A DNA stretch of 64,000 nt from a bacterium. Lineage in GTDB: Bacteria > SZUA-79 > Acidulodesulfobacterales > Acidulodesulfobacteraceae. A program made the position numbers and the translations under genes. Below the pieces are notes generated by a model. That model had not been told where the DNA came from, made no database searches, and saw only the letters and a list, made by a program, of their open reading frames with translations. Shown in pieces: positions 5,893-53,028 of this stretch (its first letter is position 1; each line of letters begins with the position of its first letter). The DNA lies in NCBI GenBank assembly GCA_021812245.1, contig JAKAOK010000005.1, positions 1-64,000 of the forward strand, read 5' to 3'.

Positions 5893-6073
5893 CCCTAATC
5901 CTTCATTAGAAAATATTTAATAAATTGCGAGAACCCGTCATTGCGAGCGCACTATTCCGTCATTGCGAGCGCAGCGAAGCAATCTAAAGCGAGATTGCTT
6001 CGCTGCGCTCGCAATGACATTATTAAGTGATTCAGGCAATTCATATATAAAAATTTCTAAATCGGGTTTGGGG
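5893..6073. repeat. Family A end sequences enclosing family C (cattgcgagcgcagcgaagcaatct) palindrome
   Basis: ccctaatccttcattagaaa ... aagcgagattgcttcgctgcgctcgcaatgac ... tttctaaatcgggtttgggg. Confidence 0.85.
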
Positions 6074-19289: not shown

Positions 19290-19487
19290 AAAATAATCAA
19301 ATTGACATAACGGCAAATTATTAAAAAACGGTAAATGCAAGCGGGAGTGGAATACGGAGGCAGACGATTTTAAAAATAGGCGGGCAGGGGTTTATGAAAG
19401 TATAAAAGCATTGCTTTTATGGCTTTTAAGTCTGCCAAAATGGCTTTTAAGTCTGCCGAAGTGAAATAAATCTGACACCTTTATTTT
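19290..19487 (-). repeat. Cassette-type 3' repeat (downstream of pseudogene cassette/RAYT boundary)
   Basis: aataatcaaattgacataacggcaaatt..aacggtaaatgcaagcgggagtgg..ggcagacgattttaaaaata..aaagcattgcttttatggcttttaagtctgcc..aaataaatctgacaccttt. Confidence 0.8.
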
Positions 19488-19490
19488 TTA

Positions 19491-20222
19491 TTAAAATAAT
19501 GTGGTTGGCATTGTTACTTTAACAGGTCGCCCTTTTCCCCGTTTTTCTATTCTTCTTCCGATTATCTGCTCTACAGAATCAGTAAAATAGCTGTTTCCCG
19601 TAAGCTGGCCTCGATTTAAAACTCCTCTCAGAAAATCTAATTCGCCCGATGGTATATTTTCCTGAAGGAACTTTGAGTATTTTTCGCGCCTTATTTCTTC
19701 CTTTTCGCTCAAACCAAGAAACATTGGATCTAAATCTATATCCATATCCCTGTCGGACTGCTCTTTTACTTTGTCGCTGCTCATTCTTGTAATATAACTT
19801 GACCACCTATAATCCGACGGTTTTTCTACAATATTTGCCCGAACTGGATTTAATTCGATATAACGGCAACAGGCTAATAAATATTGGTCTCTTTGCACAG
19901 GGCTTGATTTATACCTGCTTTCCCACAATGTTCCGCTTCTGCCTTCTAATATATTAAAATAACGGGTGGTTCGTCCGGCAAGTGTTTTCATAAATACCCA
20001 CAGATTTGAAACTTCATCTCCGGGCTGTAGAAGTAAATGAATATGATTAGTCATAAGGCAATAAGCAAATACTTTTATTTCAAATTTAATTTTTAATTCC
20101 TGTATATTTTTAAGATAATTATTAAAATCTTCGTCTTGCGCAAATATTACCTGCCTGTTATGTCCTCGTTGAACTATGTGGTGAGGGCAATTTGGCAGCA
20201 GGATTCTTTTAGTTCTCGGCAT
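19491..20222 (-). mobile_element. REP-associated tyrosine transposase (RAYT; Y1/IS200-like HUH)
   Basis: 'MPRTKRILLPNCPHHIVQRGHNRQVIF', 'YCLMTNHIHLLLQP' (HUH), 'GRSGTLWESRYKSSPVQ', 'CCRYIELNPVRANIV', 'DYRWSSY'. Confidence 0.93.
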
Positions 20223-20394
20223 ATTTAATTATTCCGTCAATTATTCCGCAAAATTATTATGCTTTTGATTATTATTATTTAATTTAAATTTTTAATTCTA
20301 ATTTTTTATTATTATAATAAACGAAAGTTAAAATATTATGATGGAAATGTTAAAGAAATGTTAAATTTTTGTTGCAGAATGATTACAATGAACC

Positions 20395-20453
20395 GGCAAA
20401 CGCAGGCGGGAGTAGAGGAATAAATAAGGAATAAATAAATCTGTCCCCTTTAT
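20395..20453 (-). repeat. Cassette-type 3' repeat (short form)
   Basis: ggcaaacgcaggcgggagtagagg..aaataaatctgtccccttt immediately 3' of DUF2283. Confidence 0.8.
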
Positions 20454-20455
20454 TC

Positions 20456-20677
20456 TTATACGGCTATCTTTTCTAAGGGTATATTTTCTATAGAGATGTT
20501 TGAAAGTTCGGCGGGATTAAGTTTTTCGCTTGCATCGAGAATCTCGATTCCAACTATATGTCCTTTTTCATCAATATCTACCGTTACCCCTTTTTCCACA
20601 TCCATCGAATCGACTATTTTTGCATCTCTAATTTTAATATATAGTGCATCCACATCTTTACTGTACTCGATTTTCAT
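20456..20677 (-). CDS. DUF2283 family protein
   Basis: 'MKIEYSKDVDALYIKIRDAKIVDSMDVEKGVTVDIDEKGHIVGIEILDAS'. Confidence 0.9.
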   Translation of the reverse strand: MKIEYSKDVDALYIKIRDAKIVDSMDVEKGVTVDIDEKGHIVGIEILDASEKLNPAELSNISIENIPLEKIAV

Positions 20678-20688
20678 AAAATTAACCT

Positions 20689-20928
20689 CTAAAAAGATTT
20701 AAAAGATTTTTTTCTAATAGTCACGGTTATAATCAAAATATTATCATTTTCTTCCTTAAATGTGACCCTTATAAACCTATTGCCTATATATTTATAAGCA
20801 TTTTTTCTGTCTTTAGCGTCAAATTCTATATAATCGGCTCGATTCACAACAGAACTAATCTCTTCTTCCGAGACATTCCTGTCTTTCATTCTTTTTCTTG
20901 CATGTCTGCAATAATTTATAGGTTTCAT
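20689..20928 (-). CDS. DUF4258 family protein (putative toxin-like partner)
   Basis: 'CRHARKRMKDRNVSEEEISSVVNRADYIEFD..NRFIRVTFKEENDNILIITVTI'. Confidence 0.85.
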   Translation of the reverse strand: MKPINYCRHARKRMKDRNVSEEEISSVVNRADYIEFDAKDRKNAYKYIGNRFIRVTFKEENDNILIITVTIRKKSFKSF

Positions 20929-20984
20929 TCGTCCTTTTTATAATTTAACATAAAAAATATTATCCGTCTATTTATTTTTTCACT

Positions 20985-21175
20985 AAAAAAATAAAATAAT
21001 TAAGCTAATCTAAAGTTAAGTTGGCATAATTGGAAATTACGGCAAATGCAGGCGGAAGTAGGATACGGAGGCAGACGATTTTAAAAATATGCGGGTAGGG
21101 GTTGTGAAAGTATAAAAGCATTGCTTTTATGGCTTTTAAGTCTGCCGGAGTGAAATAAATCAGATACCTTTACTT
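20985..21175 (-). repeat. Cassette-type 3' repeat (long form, near-copy of 19290-19487)
   Basis: acggcaaatgcaggcggaagtaggatacggaggcagacgattttaaaaatatgcggg..aaagcattgcttttatggcttttaagtctgcc..aaataaatcagatacctt. Confidence 0.85.
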
Positions 21176-21190
21176 CTATTCTGATCTCGC

Positions 21191-21418
21191 TTATGCCGTC
21201 TTTTCAATTTCGTATTGCAAAGGGAAAAGCTTGTCGAGAGCAACATGCTTTGACGCATCTATTATCTCTATTCCGACAATTTTATCATGTTCGCCTATAT
21301 CTAAAACCACGTCTTCGGAAACCCGCCTATTAATCAAATCTTGTTTTATCTCGTCTAACCTGATATATAAAAGGTCGGTTTTATCGCTGTAAAAAATATT
21401 CATAAAATATTCTCCCAT
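21191..21418 (-). CDS. DUF2283 family protein
   Basis: 'MNIFYSDKTDLLYIRLDEIKQDLINRRVSEDVVLDIGEHDKIVGIEIIDASKHV'. Confidence 0.9.
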   Translation of the reverse strand: MGEYFMNIFYSDKTDLLYIRLDEIKQDLINRRVSEDVVLDIGEHDKIVGIEIIDASKHVALDKLFPLQYEIEKTA

Positions 21419-21669
21419 TTGCCGTAAAAAACATATACTGTTACGGTAATTATTTTTTCTTTTTCGATAATAAAAAATACTTCTATTCTTTTCTGCTCAT
21501 AGAAATTGTTAAGGCGCTTTTTCTTAAATTCGTAAACCTTAGCTTTCCCGATTCGCCCGTATTTTGCCTCAATCGAAAAACCGCTCAGTATGACGTCTTT
21601 AATCTCAATCTCGTTAGCTCCTCTTTCTTGCGCCCGCTCCAGCGTGTGCCGGTCTATTTGTATTTCCAT
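21400..21669 (-). CDS. DUF4258 family protein (putative toxin-like partner)
   Basis: 'DRHTLERAQERGANEIEIKDVILSGFSIEAKYGRIGKAKVYEF..IEVFFIIEKEKIITVTVYVFYGKW'. Confidence 0.8.
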   Translation of the reverse strand: MEIQIDRHTLERAQERGANEIEIKDVILSGFSIEAKYGRIGKAKVYEFKKKRLNNFYEQKRIEVFFIIEKEKIITVTVYVFYGKWENIL

Positions 21670-21697
21670 ATGTTTTACTTATACTATAAATGAATTT

Positions 21698-21865
21698 ATA
21701 AAAATAATCAAGTTGACGCAACGGAAAATTCTAAAAATAAAAATAAGGGAAAGGGAATAAAATACGGCAAACGCAGGGCGGGAGTGGGGAAATAAATAAA
21801 TCTGTCCCCTTTATTTCCCTCCCCTTTATTTCCCTCCCCTTTATTTCCCTCCCCTTTATTTCCTT
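21698..21865 (-). repeat. Cassette-type 3' repeat plus tandem (cccctttatttccct)n expansion
   Basis: aataatcaagttgacgcaacgg..acggcaaacgcagggcgggagtggggaaataaataaatctgtcccctttatttccctcccctttatttccctcccctttatttccctccccttt. Confidence 0.85.
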
Positions 21866-21877
21866 TATTAAATAATC

Positions 21878-22074
21878 AAGTTAACATAATGGAATTTTAT
21901 GGCGGCGGGGAATAAAAACCTGCTGCGCAGATTCAAGCGGGAGTGGGGAAATAAATAAATCTGTCCCCTTTATTTTAAGTTAACATAATGGAATTTTATG
22001 GCGGCGGGGAATAAAAACCTGCTGCGCAGATTCAAGCGGGAGTGGGGAAATAAATAAATCTGTCCCCTTTATTT
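21878..22074. repeat. Perfect ~99-bp tandem duplication of the cassette repeat
   Basis: 21878-21975 and 21977-22074 read identically (aagttaacataatgg...aaataaatctgtcccctttattt). Confidence 0.92.
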
Positions 22075-22144
22075 CCCTCCCCTTTATTTCCTTTATTAGT
22101 CCCCTTTATTTAATAACATAAATTTTAAAGATATGAAAAACAGA

Positions 22145-22237
22145 AAATAAATCAAGTTGACATAACGGCAAATTATGAGAAAATACGGCAAACGCAGGTG
22201 GGAGTAAGGAAATAAATAAATCTGTCCCCTTTATTAA
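22145..22237 (-). repeat. Cassette-type 3' repeat (right-most copy)
   Basis: aaatcaagttgacataacggcaaattatgagaaaatacggcaaacgcaggtgggagtaaggaaataaataaatctgtccccttt. Confidence 0.85.
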
Positions 22238-22245
22238 GAAAGAAA

Positions 22246-25015: not shown

Positions 25016-25041
25016 GGGGAACAGATTTGAAATCTGTTCCC
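25016..25041. repeat. Family B palindrome GGGGAACAGATTTGAAATCTGTTCCC (intergenic)
   Basis: Near-perfect palindrome. Confidence 0.9.
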
Positions 25042-25113: not shown

Positions 25114-27003
25114 TCAATACATCCTGTAATTGCCGAAGCGACGTTCGGCGGCGGAAGCGTTAAAATCTTTCATCAGATACAGATAATACGTTCTTACCGG
25201 TTTAAATTTAACGTAAATATCGAGCCTGCCTATTTTTTTTACCGATTTAAAAAACGGCGCATATTTTTGGACGGGATTCAGCATATATTTGTTATCCATA
25301 ACAAACAGGGCATTTTCTCCGTTTATTTTGTTCAGGTTCTGCCGGAGGTCGTACTGGTTTAAAAAACCGGATATATTATAAATATTTACGGCAGGCTTGT
25401 ATCCGCCGTAATAGACGAGTTCGTCGGCAATGGCATAGTGGTGCGTAAGGATAAAGAGCGGACGGTAAGCCGCCTTATAGCCTTTATAAACGATTCCTAT
25501 ATACTTTGCGCCGTGCCGCCAACCGAAAAGGTCGTTCGTTATGTCGGCGGTGGAAGGTTTGCCCGGAATATGCGGGATGAGCGAAAACACCCCGCCCTTT
25601 CTAAGCCGCTTTTCTTTGTCGATATAACGTATTATTTTACCTACCGGTATGGAATTATAATAAATCTGGTTATATACGACAAGGGACAAAAAGAAACCGG
25701 AAAAGAGGGCGAAATAGACGTAATATTTGAGGAAAAAGAAAAAGGGGACAGATTTATTTATTCCCAAGTTGCTGCTTGACTTTGCCGAACTGTTCGTTTG
25801 AGAATAAAAAATATCTGTCCCCTTTTTCTTTTCTTGTTTCCGCGTAAACAGGTCGGCGGAATAACCCATAACTGGAAATACGGCGAGATAACCTATGTCC
25901 GGCCAGTGGACGAGAATTCTGTGGGAATAGCCGTTTATAACGAAAAATAATAGAATAGGAATAGACAAACAGACGGAAAACAGCAAAGATTCACGGACGC
26001 CGCCGGTGGAAAAGGGGACGGATTTTAAATCTGTCCCCTTTTCTTCTTTGTCGAACCGCCCCGTCGGCCGAAGGCCGACACCCCTCCTTTTAAGTAGGGG
26101 AGCTATATAGAAAAAAACTCCTATTAAAAATATATATATAAACGGCGTAATAACCAGAACCTGTCCGAACCAGCCGGCGGCCAAAAGGGGAAAACCCGGC
26201 TTGGGGTGCGAAAAACCGTGCGAAAGCTGAAACTTAAACGATATAAAATTATGCGTAAAATTCCAGTATATTACCGGCGAAAAAACAAGAAGCGCTACGG
26301 CAAGAGCCATATAAGGATAAAATGTTTTTAAAAAACGTCTGTTTCGTCCGGAAACAAGCAGATACAGAAGAACGGCGGGCGGGATGAGCGCGGCGGTGTA
26401 TTTGCTTAAAAACGCAAAGCCGAGGGAGATACCGGCGAGGAGCCAGTAAGAAGAAAAAAAAGAAAAAAAGGGGACAGATTTATTTTTTGCTTTGCAAAAA
26501 AAAAGATCTGTCCCCTTTTTTTCTTTCATCGTCTTATTCCCCTCTGCCGCTTTATAAAAAAATATAAAAAAACAGAGAGTAAAAAACAACAGGGGGGCAT
26601 CGGGAAGCGCCATAACGGAAAGAATCATTCCAAAAATAACGGCGGACAGAAAAAATAAAAACGAGAAAAAAGCCGCCCGTTTGTTTTTAAATAAAATATA
26701 AGAAAGGTAATATACTAAAAATCCGTCTAAGAAAGAAAAGATAACTGCGCCGAGCCTGACCGAAAGCTGGCTTTTGCCGAAAATACCGTCAAAAACGTAT
26801 ATAATCCAGCCGATAAGAGGGGCGTCGTCGAGATAGCCTAAAGACGGTTTCAACGACCATACATAATAATGCGCTTCGTCGTTGCCGAGGTTAAGAGTGG
26901 AAGCAAGATGAATATGGATGATAAGCGCAACCAGAGAAATGAGAATTAAATAAATCTCATATTGAAATTTACCGATATACAAACTCAATTTTTGCCTGCT
27001 CAA
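25114..27003 (-). CDS. GT39/ArnT-like membrane glycosyltransferase with four in-frame repeat insertions
   Basis: 'LGNDEAHYYVWSLKPSLGYLDDAPLIGWIIY', PMT-type TM pattern; interrupted by KKGTD..KSVPFF and RRGVGLRPTG peptides. Confidence 0.88.
   Translation of the reverse strand: MSRQKLSLYIGKFQYEIYLILISLVALIIHIHLASTLNLGNDEAHYYVWSLKPSLGYLDDAPLIGWIIYVFDGIFGKSQLSVRLGAVIFSFLDGFLVYYLSYILFKNKRAAFFSFLFFLSAVIFGMILSVMALPDAPLLFFTLCFFIFFYKAAEGNKTMKEKKGTDLFFCKAKNKSVPFFSFFSSYWLLAGISLGFAFLSKYTAALIPPAVLLYLLVSGRNRRFLKTFYPYMALAVALLVFSPVIYWNFTHNFISFKFQLSHGFSHPKPGFPLLAAGWFGQVLVITPFIYIFLIGVFFYIAPLLKRRGVGLRPTGRFDKEEKGTDLKSVPFSTGGVRESLLFSVCLSIPILLFFVINGYSHRILVHWPDIGYLAVFPVMGYSADLFTRKQEKKKGTDIFYSQTNSSAKSSSNLGINKSVPFFFFLKYYVYFALFSGFFLSLVVYNQIYYNSIPVGKIIRYIDKEKRLRKGGVFSLIPHIPGKPSTADITNDLFGWRHGAKYIGIVYKGYKAAYRPLFILTHHYAIADELVYYGGYKPAVNIYNISGFLNQYDLRQNLNKINGENALFVMDNKYMLNPVQKYAPFFKSVKKIGRLDIYVKFKPVRTYYLYLMKDFNASAAERRFGNYRMY
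25740..25827. repeat. Family B element inside GT39 gene (long loop)
   Basis: aaaaggggacagattta...atatctgtcccctttt. Confidence 0.9.
26010..26042. repeat. Family B element inside GT39 gene
   Basis: aaaaggggacggattttaaatctgtcccctttt. Confidence 0.92.
26054..26103. repeat. Family D element inside GT39 gene
   Basis: aaccgccccgtcggccgaaggccgacacccctccttttaagtaggggagc. Confidence 0.8.
26464..26522. repeat. Family B element inside GT39 gene
   Basis: aaaaaggggacagatttatttttt..aaaaagatctgtcccctttt. Confidence 0.9.
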
Positions 27004-27008
27004 ATTTA

Positions 27009-28814
27009 TTATAAAGCGCCTGCTATAATTATAGTTTTCATTAATCCGTTAAATCTGTCTTTCAGTTCCAAAGCGGCATCGATTTGCGCAAATAAGGCAG
27101 TGTCGCTGCCGACGGCGGTCAACGGCTCTAATTCTTTTTCCGAAGGCTCCTCAAAATATTCCTTCTGGTTAAAATAAACCGCGGCATCTGCTTCGGAATA
27201 ATCGTTTAAACCGGCGGCGGCTGAATCGGCGTTTGCGCCGCCGACGCCGAACCTGTCCGCAAGCCTTTTTAATATAATTTCTTCTTTTTCTTTTTCGTCA
27301 TATATTTTAGAATATACGAATATAAAAATACAGTCTTTTTTATTAAAACTATTAATTATTTTTTCGCGGTGGGCGTGCTTTAAGAATGTAGCGTCGAATA
27401 TTACGCTGCCGCCGTTTCCCTGCCGCCCGCCGTTTTCAAATTCTTTAAGTCCTTCTTCGAGCATGGTTTCGTAAACCTTTACGTTTGCGTCAGCCGAATA
27501 TTTGACGGACTTATCCGCCCCGCCGAATAAGTTCTGCCTTATTTCGTCCGTGGAAACGATTCGCGCGTAAAACCACTCGGAAAGCAGGCGGGAAAGCGAA
27601 GACTTGCCGCTGCCGGAAAGACCGCAATTAAGAATAACGACCCGTTTTTTTGCCAGGGCAAGATAAAAAGCCGCCAGATTGAAATATTTAAGGGCTTTTG
27701 CGGGCGCGTCTCCTCCGGGGGAAAGCATGGAAATCTTAGTTCTGACTATCGCCCTGTAGGCTTTAAAAAAAGGTATCACGAAAGGTTCGTATTTCTCGAA
27801 CGGGGCAATGGATTTTAAATAGTTAAAACAGTTTTTATAATAGCCGAAAAACAGGACGGATTCATAAAAATAGCCGTTAAATTCAAAATCCATAAGTAAA
27901 AAGGCAATGTCTAAATATATATCCTGGCATCTGTATCTTTCGTCAAATTCGACGCAGTCCATAAGACAGGTTCCGTTAACGCGGCGAGGGTCTAAAACAG
28001 CTATATGCTCCATTCTTAAATCCCCGTGAACGTCCCTGACGAAGCCGCCTTCGGCGCGGAGGCGGATAAATTCGGAGAAAATAGAAGACTCAAGGAAAGA
28101 ACTGTAAGCAGAGCGGAAGGAAGAGCAAGAAAGGGATAGAATGGAAAAAAAGGGGGCAAATATTTTTTTTTCGGTTTTTTGAAAAAATAAATCTGTCCCC
28201 TTTTTTTCATTGCCCTTTTTTTCATTCTTTTCTTCTATTATTTTATAATTGTCGTCCCAGTTTGCCTTATAAACATCGTAACCGCCGAATTTAGAAATTC
28301 TTTTCGCGGTTCGGGCGGTCTTATGAAACAGGTATATTCTTTTCGCGGTTTTTTTTAGAATATCGTTTATTTTTATTGCGGAAACCGTCTGATTACTTTT
28401 CAAGATATTATTTAAAAAACAGTCGGAATTTACCCTTCTCATCCTGACAAAGACGTCTATGAGCCTACCACCCTTAAATCCGGTGAACTGCTTGTCCTTT
28501 TTCTGCCTGAGTTCTACCAAATCAAGATAAATACCGGAGCAGGCTCTTCTGTTTAAAGACAGTTCGCGTTTTGCGAAAAAAATTCTCTTTTTGAGGGTCG
28601 TATAATCGACGAAGCCGAAATTTACCGGTTTTTTTTGCTTGTAGGCGAACTTAGGGGTTAAATAAACCCGCGATATATGGGTTTCGATAACTGCCGCCCC
28701 GCCAGAACCGCCCCGCCCTGACGAACCCCCCTCCTCGGCATTAAAAGAAAAGGGGACGGATTTGAAATCCGTCCCCTTTTCTTTCCATTCTTCCTTCTTT
28801 TCTTCATCGCGCAT
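27009..28814 (-). CDS. Aminoglycoside phosphotransferase-like / P-loop kinase fusion protein with in-frame repeat insertions
   Basis: 'ETHISRVYLTPKFAYKQKKPVNFGFVDYTTL', 'VHGDLRMEHIAV', 'DCVEFDERYRCQDIYLDIAFLLMDFEF', then 'NCGLSGSGKSSLSRLL'. Confidence 0.88.
   Translation of the reverse strand: MRDEEKKEEWKEKGTDFKSVPFSFNAEEGGSSGRGGSGGAAVIETHISRVYLTPKFAYKQKKPVNFGFVDYTTLKKRIFFAKRELSLNRRACSGIYLDLVELRQKKDKQFTGFKGGRLIDVFVRMRRVNSDCFLNNILKSNQTVSAIKINDILKKTAKRIYLFHKTARTAKRISKFGGYDVYKANWDDNYKIIEEKNEKKGNEKKGTDLFFQKTEKKIFAPFFSILSLSCSSFRSAYSSFLESSIFSEFIRLRAEGGFVRDVHGDLRMEHIAVLDPRRVNGTCLMDCVEFDERYRCQDIYLDIAFLLMDFEFNGYFYESVLFFGYYKNCFNYLKSIAPFEKYEPFVIPFFKAYRAIVRTKISMLSPGGDAPAKALKYFNLAAFYLALAKKRVVILNCGLSGSGKSSLSRLLSEWFYARIVSTDEIRQNLFGGADKSVKYSADANVKVYETMLEEGLKEFENGGRQGNGGSVIFDATFLKHAHREKIINSFNKKDCIFIFVYSKIYDEKEKEEIILKRLADRFGVGGANADSAAAGLNDYSEADAAVYFNQKEYFEEPSEKELEPLTAVGSDTALFAQIDAALELKDRFNGLMKTIIIAGAL
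28145..28207. repeat. Family B element (degenerate arm) inside APH/kinase gene
   Basis: aaaaaaagggggcaaatattt..aaataaatctgtcccctttttt. Confidence 0.8.
28748..28780. repeat. Family B element inside APH/kinase gene (5' end)
   Basis: aaaaggggacggatttgaaatccgtcccctttt. Confidence 0.92.
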
Positions 28815-32078: not shown

Positions 32079-32272
32079 CCCAAATACCGATTTAGAAAGT
32101 ATTTAATAAATTCCAATATTCCGTCATTGCGAGAACCAGTCATTGCGAGCGTAGCGAAACAATCTAAAGCGAGATTGTTTCGCTACGCTCGCAATGACGG
32201 AATAGTGCGCTCACAATGACGTTATTAAGTAATTCAGGTAATTCATATATAAAAATTCCCAAATCGGGATTT
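32079..32272. repeat. Family A ends enclosing family C palindrome, abutting the rplT stop
   Basis: cccaaataccgatttagaaa..gcgagattgtttcgctacgctcgcaatgac..cccaaatcgggattta. Confidence 0.88.
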
Positions 32273-34340: not shown

Positions 34341-34365
34341 GGGGACAGATTTAAAATCTGTCCCC
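34341..34365. repeat. Family B palindrome GGGGACAGATTTAAAATCTGTCCCC (intergenic)
   Basis: Perfect palindromic arms. Confidence 0.92.
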
Positions 34366-51444: not shown

Positions 51445-51636
51445 CCCCAACCCCGATCTATAAATTTTTAATATATGAATTACCTGGATTACTTAATAAC
51501 GTCATTGCGAGCATATCTTTGACTGCATAAAACCGTTGGTTTTATAAACGCAGTCAAAGATATGCTCGCAATGACGGGTTCTTGGAATGACGGGTTCTCG
51601 CAATTTCTTTAAATAGCTTCTAAACCGGGATTTGGG
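51445..51636. repeat. Family A ends enclosing family C long hairpin (tandem with previous element)
   Basis: ttgcgagcatatctttgactgcataaaaccgttggttttataaacgcagtcaaagatatgctcgcaa. Confidence 0.9.
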
Positions 51637-52713: not shown

Positions 52714-53028
52714 CCAAATCCCGATTTAGAAAATATTTATAAGTTCTAATGCTGAATAACACTGGATTCCTGCTTTCGCAGGAATGACTATTCGGGAATT
52801 GAGGTTTTAACCCAAAGGGTGTCATTCCTGCGAAAGCAGGAATCCAGAATTTACATATAAAAGAAACATCTAAATATTTTCTAATGCAGGATTAAGGTAC
52901 ATGGTTCGAATCCCGATTTATAAATTTTTAATATATGAATTATCTGGATTACTTAATTCCGTCATTGCTGCGCTCGCAATGACGGAATATTAGAATTTAT
53001 TAAATATTTTCTAAATCGGGATTAGGTA
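52714..53028. repeat. Two adjacent family A elements (52714-52898; 52907-53028)
   Basis: Inverted ends; first uses gattcctgctttcgcaggaat, second encloses tcattgctgcgctcgcaatgac. Confidence 0.88.

Follow-up and report, generated by a model that had tools for sequence, protein, structure and literature searches.

How does a single bacterial gene come to hold several mobile palindromes and still encode a protein? The question is raised by a GT39/ArnT-fold glycosyltransferase gene in the window, by which we mean the whole 64,000-nucleotide stretch of DNA analyzed here, part of the genome denoted G000. An earlier note, made from the sequence alone, described four in-frame palindromic inserts in this gene, three of family B and one of family D, and all four are indeed found (Table 1). 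The ORF encodes 629 amino acids from a TTG start and contains no internal stops. The three B copies are read in the same phase, KGTD..KSVP, as the note had observed, because their core lengths of 25, 46 and 79 nt are all 1 modulo 3. A common phase does not hold as a general rule: B copies inside genes occur in other phases too, such as RGQISNLSPF (GT39 of G008 and G015), RGQILNLSP (lysS) and GDRFKSVP (an aldolase-like gene), and the KGTD phase is merely the commonest. The peptide RRGVGLRPTGR, attributed in the note to the D element, does derive from it, although the full D peptide is longer, PLLKRRGVGLRPTGRF.

Table 1. Features of the window that bear on the palindromic inserts
Feature	Position	Strand	Remarks
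GT39/ArnT-fold glycosyltransferase gene, host of inserts	25114-27003	-	PMT_2 1.6e-29; fold matches ArnT 5f15/5ezm; core dN/dS ~0.1
Loop 1 insert, aa 160-180, KEKKGTDLFFCKAKNKSVPFF	26464-26526	-	B palindrome core 26470-26515 (46 nt)
Loop 2 family D element, aa 301-317, APLLKRRGVGLRPTGRF, two hairpins	26053-26103	-	
Loop 2 family B palindrome, aa 318-331, DKEEKGTDLKSVPF	26011-26052	-	Core 26014-26038 (25 nt)
Loop 3 insert, aa 392-422, KKKGTDIFYSQTNSSAKSSSNLGINKSVPFF, long B element	25738-25830	-	Core 25744-25822 (79 nt)
Adjacent kinase-like gene (AAA_33), second target	27009-28814	-	B palindrome 28752-28776 near N-terminus; degenerate one at ~28120-28232
Y1 (IS200-like, RAYT-like) transposase gene, candidate B mover	19491-20222	-	Only Y1 gene detected in G000
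Five single B half-sites in repeat array beside Y1 gene	20430-22237		At 20439, 21800, 21959, 22058, 22220
Variant palindrome GGGAACAGATTT..AAATCTGTTCCC between apt and GT39 3' end	25017-25041		
Intact B palindrome, no long ORF across	34341-34365		

The host protein has a PMT_2 domain and a GT-C fold, and its predicted structure matches ArnT best among solved structures (Foldseek 2e-7; VIA-align Z 27.3), followed by other GT-C enzymes. We do not assign it to ArnT proper, which transfers aminoarabinose to lipid A, since it scores 42.9 bits against the equivalog NF009784, for which the cut-off is 567. A sequence search of solved structures gave no match, and a search of a plasmid collection gave distant matches only. 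In an AlphaFold2 model built from 23 sequences (mean pLDDT 67), the inserts coincide with low-pLDDT stretches at residues 158–180, 310–333 and 391–416, three loops that are each flanked by predicted TM helices. Low confidence alone is unspecific for these loops, because four further stretches of the protein are likewise low. Counting helices from a cytoplasmic N-terminus places the three insert loops probably in the cytoplasm, and their K+R counts agree (6–7, versus 0–2 in the other long loops of the protein). A position opposite the acidic catalytic loop would explain why the protein tolerates inserts there.

To see how these loops vary, we drew on 22 close relatives from a scan of genome contigs and on more from a whole-genome search. 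The relatives are acid-mine MAGs of the Acidulodesulfobacterales type, one of them titled Candidatus Acididesulfobacter; Ca. Acidulodesulfobacterales is a described order (PMC6776010). We collected 28 GT39 ORFs including that of the window, with a few longer stretches added; at least two are partial, and none of the 28 has an internal stop. In the alignment the core is conserved and the three loops, which differ greatly in length and content, are the most strongly length-variable parts; no homologue has conserved non-repeat sequence at the insert positions. Estimates of dN/dS across the relatives are 0.07–0.16 for the core and roughly 0.3–0.9 for the loops, the latter values being rough because the loops align poorly. 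By this measure the core is under strong purifying selection. The two outcomes that the note named as refuting its reading, conserved non-repeat sequence at these positions and a decaying pseudogene in all strains, are thus not seen among these relatives.

The content of each loop depends on the species. In loop 1 the insert is a B element of 25 or 46 nt, a D element or both together; G011 and G013 have short native stretches there, of 8 and 11 aa. Loop 2 holds B, D, a GGGGTCTGAT variant (G019, G022 and L024) or half-sites. Loop 3 contains B in two genomes, G000 and G012, and a different palindrome in G015, and is short and palindrome-free in all clade B species. Counted by hand, the pattern requires about a dozen insertions. 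That different elements occupy the same loops across the family indicates a hotspot rather than a one-off event. The loops also appear to have moved as units: loop 1 of G010 is 93.5% identical to that of G007b over 123 nt, versus about 75% in the flanking core (P 2e-7), and the loop 2 sequences of G011 and G010 are alike (86% versus 74–81%), which suggests that loop cassettes have been exchanged between lineages via recombination. G001 and G007 each have two versions of the operon, which may reflect paralogy or mixed bins.

Family B consists of inverted half-sites that form a hairpin and is repeated in the genome, with spacers ranging from 4–5 nt up to that of the 79-nt core; B cores span 24–79 nt, and D is a two-hairpin unit. 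The motif GGGGACRGAT, with at most one mismatch, occurs 21 times in the window versus 4.6 expected, a number reached in none of 100 shuffles. Genome-wide, G000 contains 12 intact B palindromes with spacers of up to 30, and the same search with a reversed control pattern returned none. Perfect inverted repeats of further families (GTCATTGCGAGCG.., CTGGATTCCTGCTTTCGCAGG..) are also seen in the window, at 5959-6018, 32139-32198, 51500-51576 and 52762-52847. Relatives carry related palindrome families with other arms, namely GGGGTCAGAATT, GGTGTCAGAATT, GGTATCGGATTT, GGTGCCAGAATT and GGGACGGATTT (L184:2534, L179:1727, L203:2090, L183:825), as if the arm sequence drifts while palindromy stays. A literature search for the B motif and peptide returned only papers whose titles look unrelated, none of them about the motif.

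Several other genes contain B elements, and these bear on both mobility and translation. Two of the GT39 elements have near-identical counterparts in the kinase gene of another species: the 79-nt element of loop 3 shares 73 of 79 positions with one located at the N-terminus in G008, and the 46-nt element of loop 1 shares 45 of 46 with one in the interior of the gene in G007. This shows that the elements are mobile. In lysS of G000, an in-frame B copy amounts to a net insertion of 24 nt relative to 12 relatives. In-frame copies are also present in dnaE of G000 and aroK of G007 (the aroK of G003 carries another palindrome), in the AmmeMemoRadiSam B gene of G000 and in the aldolase-like gene of G022. 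LysS and DnaE are essential in bacteria generally, and inserts in them are thus presumably translated without harm. Maintenance of frame in GT39, as in lysS, dnaE and aroK, suggests that the GT39 inserts are likewise translated; the peptides they add most likely have no function. Empty sites for two of the copies proved elusive: the flanks of the L118 copy match separate places in relatives, leaving no usable empty site, and at the site of the aldolase-like gene (L100) relatives have a similar, perhaps decayed KFKSSPL, so that no clean empty site is available. In a NuoB-like gene, a B palindrome is seen at the same C-terminal site in two genera (G012, G019; L122:1573-2397, L098:735-1589); it is either old and kept perfect, or was inserted twice.

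How unusual is the GT39 gene as a target? Across the 16 genomes of the genus we count 49 non-overlapping intact B palindromes, of which GT39 accounts for 10 and the kinase gene for 4; of the 20 intact D copies, 8 are likewise in GT39. About 0.06 B and 0.02 D copies would be expected there, giving an over-representation of roughly 180- to 360-fold. When shared copies are collapsed by hand into events, GT39 retains 8 of 47 for B and 3 of 15 for D; were targets uniform, P would be about 8e-16 and 6e-7, respectively. The GT39 loops and the kinase gene are hit far beyond what uniform targeting predicts, which makes it probable that tolerance is joined by a proximity or target effect.

A candidate for the source of such an effect lies 4.9 kb downstream of GT39. 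This Y1 transposase gene matches PF01797 at 51 bits, and its HxH and catalytic Tyr motifs read HIHLLLQP and YIELNPVRA; against NCBIfam NF047646 it scores 75.3 bits, below the cut-off of 80. In G000, 14 of the 30 AGGGGACRGAT sites fall at 20.4–28.8 kb, and a half-site beside the Y1 gene, AATAAATAAATCTGTCCCCTTTATT, is the same as one end of the 79-nt element. In G002 and G008, too, a Y1 gene lies on the downstream side of this operon. The nearby RAYT-like transposase is therefore the likely mover of B, in our judgment. B half-sites lie on one side of the Y1 gene in G000 and on both sides, in the same orientation, in G003; inverted flanking repeats were not found at the gene in either genome. We considered whether half-sites might flank the Y1 gene in every genome, and the genomes examined do not bear this out: none were seen near the Y1 genes of G002, G004, G008 and G014. 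B is also present in G007, G012 and G019 with no Y1 gene detected, some of these assemblies being incomplete. Nor can proximity to the Y1 gene be the whole cause, because D is over-represented at the same loops and nothing links D to that transposase.

The surroundings of the Y1 gene have features of their own. The region at 19300-22240 is a cassette-like array with two DUF2283+DUF4258 pairs (20456-20928 and 21191-21669) and, several times over, a repeat of ~80 bp that has a single B half-site at its end; similar units occur elsewhere in the genome (C6, C10, C11). In G004 and G014 (L084, L078), the kinase gene is out of the operon and adjoins a Y1 transposase gene.

The explanation we favor, and regard as probable overall, is that short mobile palindromes insert widely and survive in tolerant in-frame sites, such as the three GT39 loops, with a probable proximity or target effect in addition, for which the Y1 transposase is the likeliest agent in the case of B. 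On this model, B and D would be short mobile palindromes inserting in many places; within genes, their survival would require an uninterrupted frame and a protein that can accommodate additional residues. GT39 would offer three tolerant loops, probably cytoplasmic, on the membrane face opposite the periplasmic active site. For B, the local effect would most likely come from the RAYT-like Y1 transposase close by, which would carry elements into neighboring DNA. The earlier note's phrase for the locus, repeat-mediated protein expansion in extramembrane loops, is apt as a description; as a cause, tolerated insertion reads better.

It is possible, if on the whole unlikely, that tolerance alone suffices. 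Insertion would then be random and purged except in permissive proteins, and GT39 would simply have three permissive loops, with no target or proximity effect. In keeping with this idea, the GT39 loops of other genera vary in length also by non-element sequence, and the dnaE and aroK inserts sit in loops that are variable in relatives anyway. The difficulty is one of numbers: a few hundred loop bases hold the 10 B and 8 D copies counted above, and permissive intergenic DNA, compared here without a full gene map, holds only the remainder. One can also envision a bolder scheme in which unrelated short palindromes dock in the GT39 loops and in the linked kinase gene, and loop cassettes are swapped between lineages; mobile hairpins, together with a linked Y1 transposase, would then supply a system of naturally shuffled protein loops. 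We view this scheme as speculative and rather unlikely.

Template switching at quasipalindromes, described as a known route (PMC7202029, PMC3820800), might instead make or perfect palindromes in place, with little true transposition. In 21 of 56 B copies the arms run at least 6 complementary bases into the flank, versus about 1 expected when flanks are re-paired, and this extension suggests that template switching occurs. In loop 1 of G012 the extension is 14 nt, and its left side aligns with conserved host codons, copied inverted. However, unrelated genes have the core in common, as they do the 79-nt and 46-nt elements with their spacers, and one 41-nt palindrome is common to loops 1 and 2 of G004. 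As the main origin of the inserts, template switching is quite unlikely, but it may reshape copies after insertion.

Alternatively, the hairpins or their K/R-rich peptides may have been domesticated, for example if the mRNA hairpins made translation pause between TM helices or if the inserts acted as topology-fixing spacers. It would fit that the three loops hold two families unrelated to each other, and that loops which are probably cytoplasmic carry positively charged peptides. Yet several relatives have short palindrome-free loops (loop 3 throughout clade B, loop 1 in G011 and G013), and loop dN/dS is relaxed; we consider selection for the inserts improbable. Skipping of the inserts by ribosomal bypassing or RNA removal has a precedent in the hairpin 'byp' elements of yeast mitochondria, and the inserts are hairpin-shaped and inside genes, but all GT39 inserts examined keep frame and lack stops over many events, constraints that skipping would relax, making this very improbable. 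Equally so, several repeats within one gene could mark a pseudogene in decay, a reading of GT39 that is ruled out by the open ORFs of the relatives, the core dN/dS of ~0.1 and the conserved operon.

This kind of phenomenon is already known, and the present case behaves as RPEs and intragenic REPs do. Rickettsia palindromic elements (RPEs; Ogata et al. 2000, 2002) are outlined in PMC10969869 and PMC3733652 as several palindromic families that lie in frame in unrelated genes which stay functional, those of the first report being about 150 bp long and found in intracellular Rickettsia. Here too, palindromic elements are in frame in unrelated genes (GT39, the kinase gene, lysS, dnaE and aroK). Compared by description only, the present elements differ in that their cores are 24–79 nt, their hosts are free-living acid-mine bacteria, and one gene is filled repeatedly at the same three loops. 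Intragenic REPs of the GTAG and CGTC super-families are short palindromes within genes of several species, many of them located in genes for replication and repair; some genes are hit twice, and some REP families are tied to Y1 transposases (PMC3733652). B resembles them as a short palindrome inside genes, but inspection of the flanks of 56 B copies revealed no GTAG or CGTC tag, B is low in copy number, and here two unrelated families are concentrated in one gene. REPINs, in turn, have two inverted half-sites forming a hairpin and are reported as extragenic, and RAYT genes as flanked by inverted REPs (PMC3116915, PMC2817692). B shares with them the inverted half-sites, the spacers of variable length and a Y1 transposase gene with half-sites nearby; it differs in that genes harbor many of its copies and in that the half-sites next to the Y1 gene all point one way. 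Strict B copies number 0 to 15 per genome, versus often over 100 for REP/REPIN, and at least 14 of the 49 lie in just two genes, so that B is not mainly extragenic. Because it differs in tag, copy number, location and transposase flanks, we do not file B as a REP or REPIN, and we do not place it among the RPEs either. Finally, mitochondrial protein genes of Nematomorpha are described, in the outline given by PMC6649704, as containing perfect inverted repeats of up to 284 bp with both arms translated. The likeness lies in inverted repeats inside protein-coding genes; the elements here are shorter and are not in animal mitochondria. What is new is the lineage, the elements, and a hotspot common to unrelated families.

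These findings extend the concept of selfish DNA inside genes, known from Rickettsia and from REP repeats, to a new lineage, in which one gene is an unusually hot target and the GT39 protein presumably gains floppy loops. Gene-dwelling palindromes like RPEs are thus not peculiar to intracellular Rickettsia. A local excess this large makes the target choice of such elements testable. Moreover, the more than 20 orthologues form a natural series in which the same loops gain, lose and exchange mobile DNA while the gene stays open throughout, so that one can trace, stage by stage, how a selfish insert becomes a protein loop.
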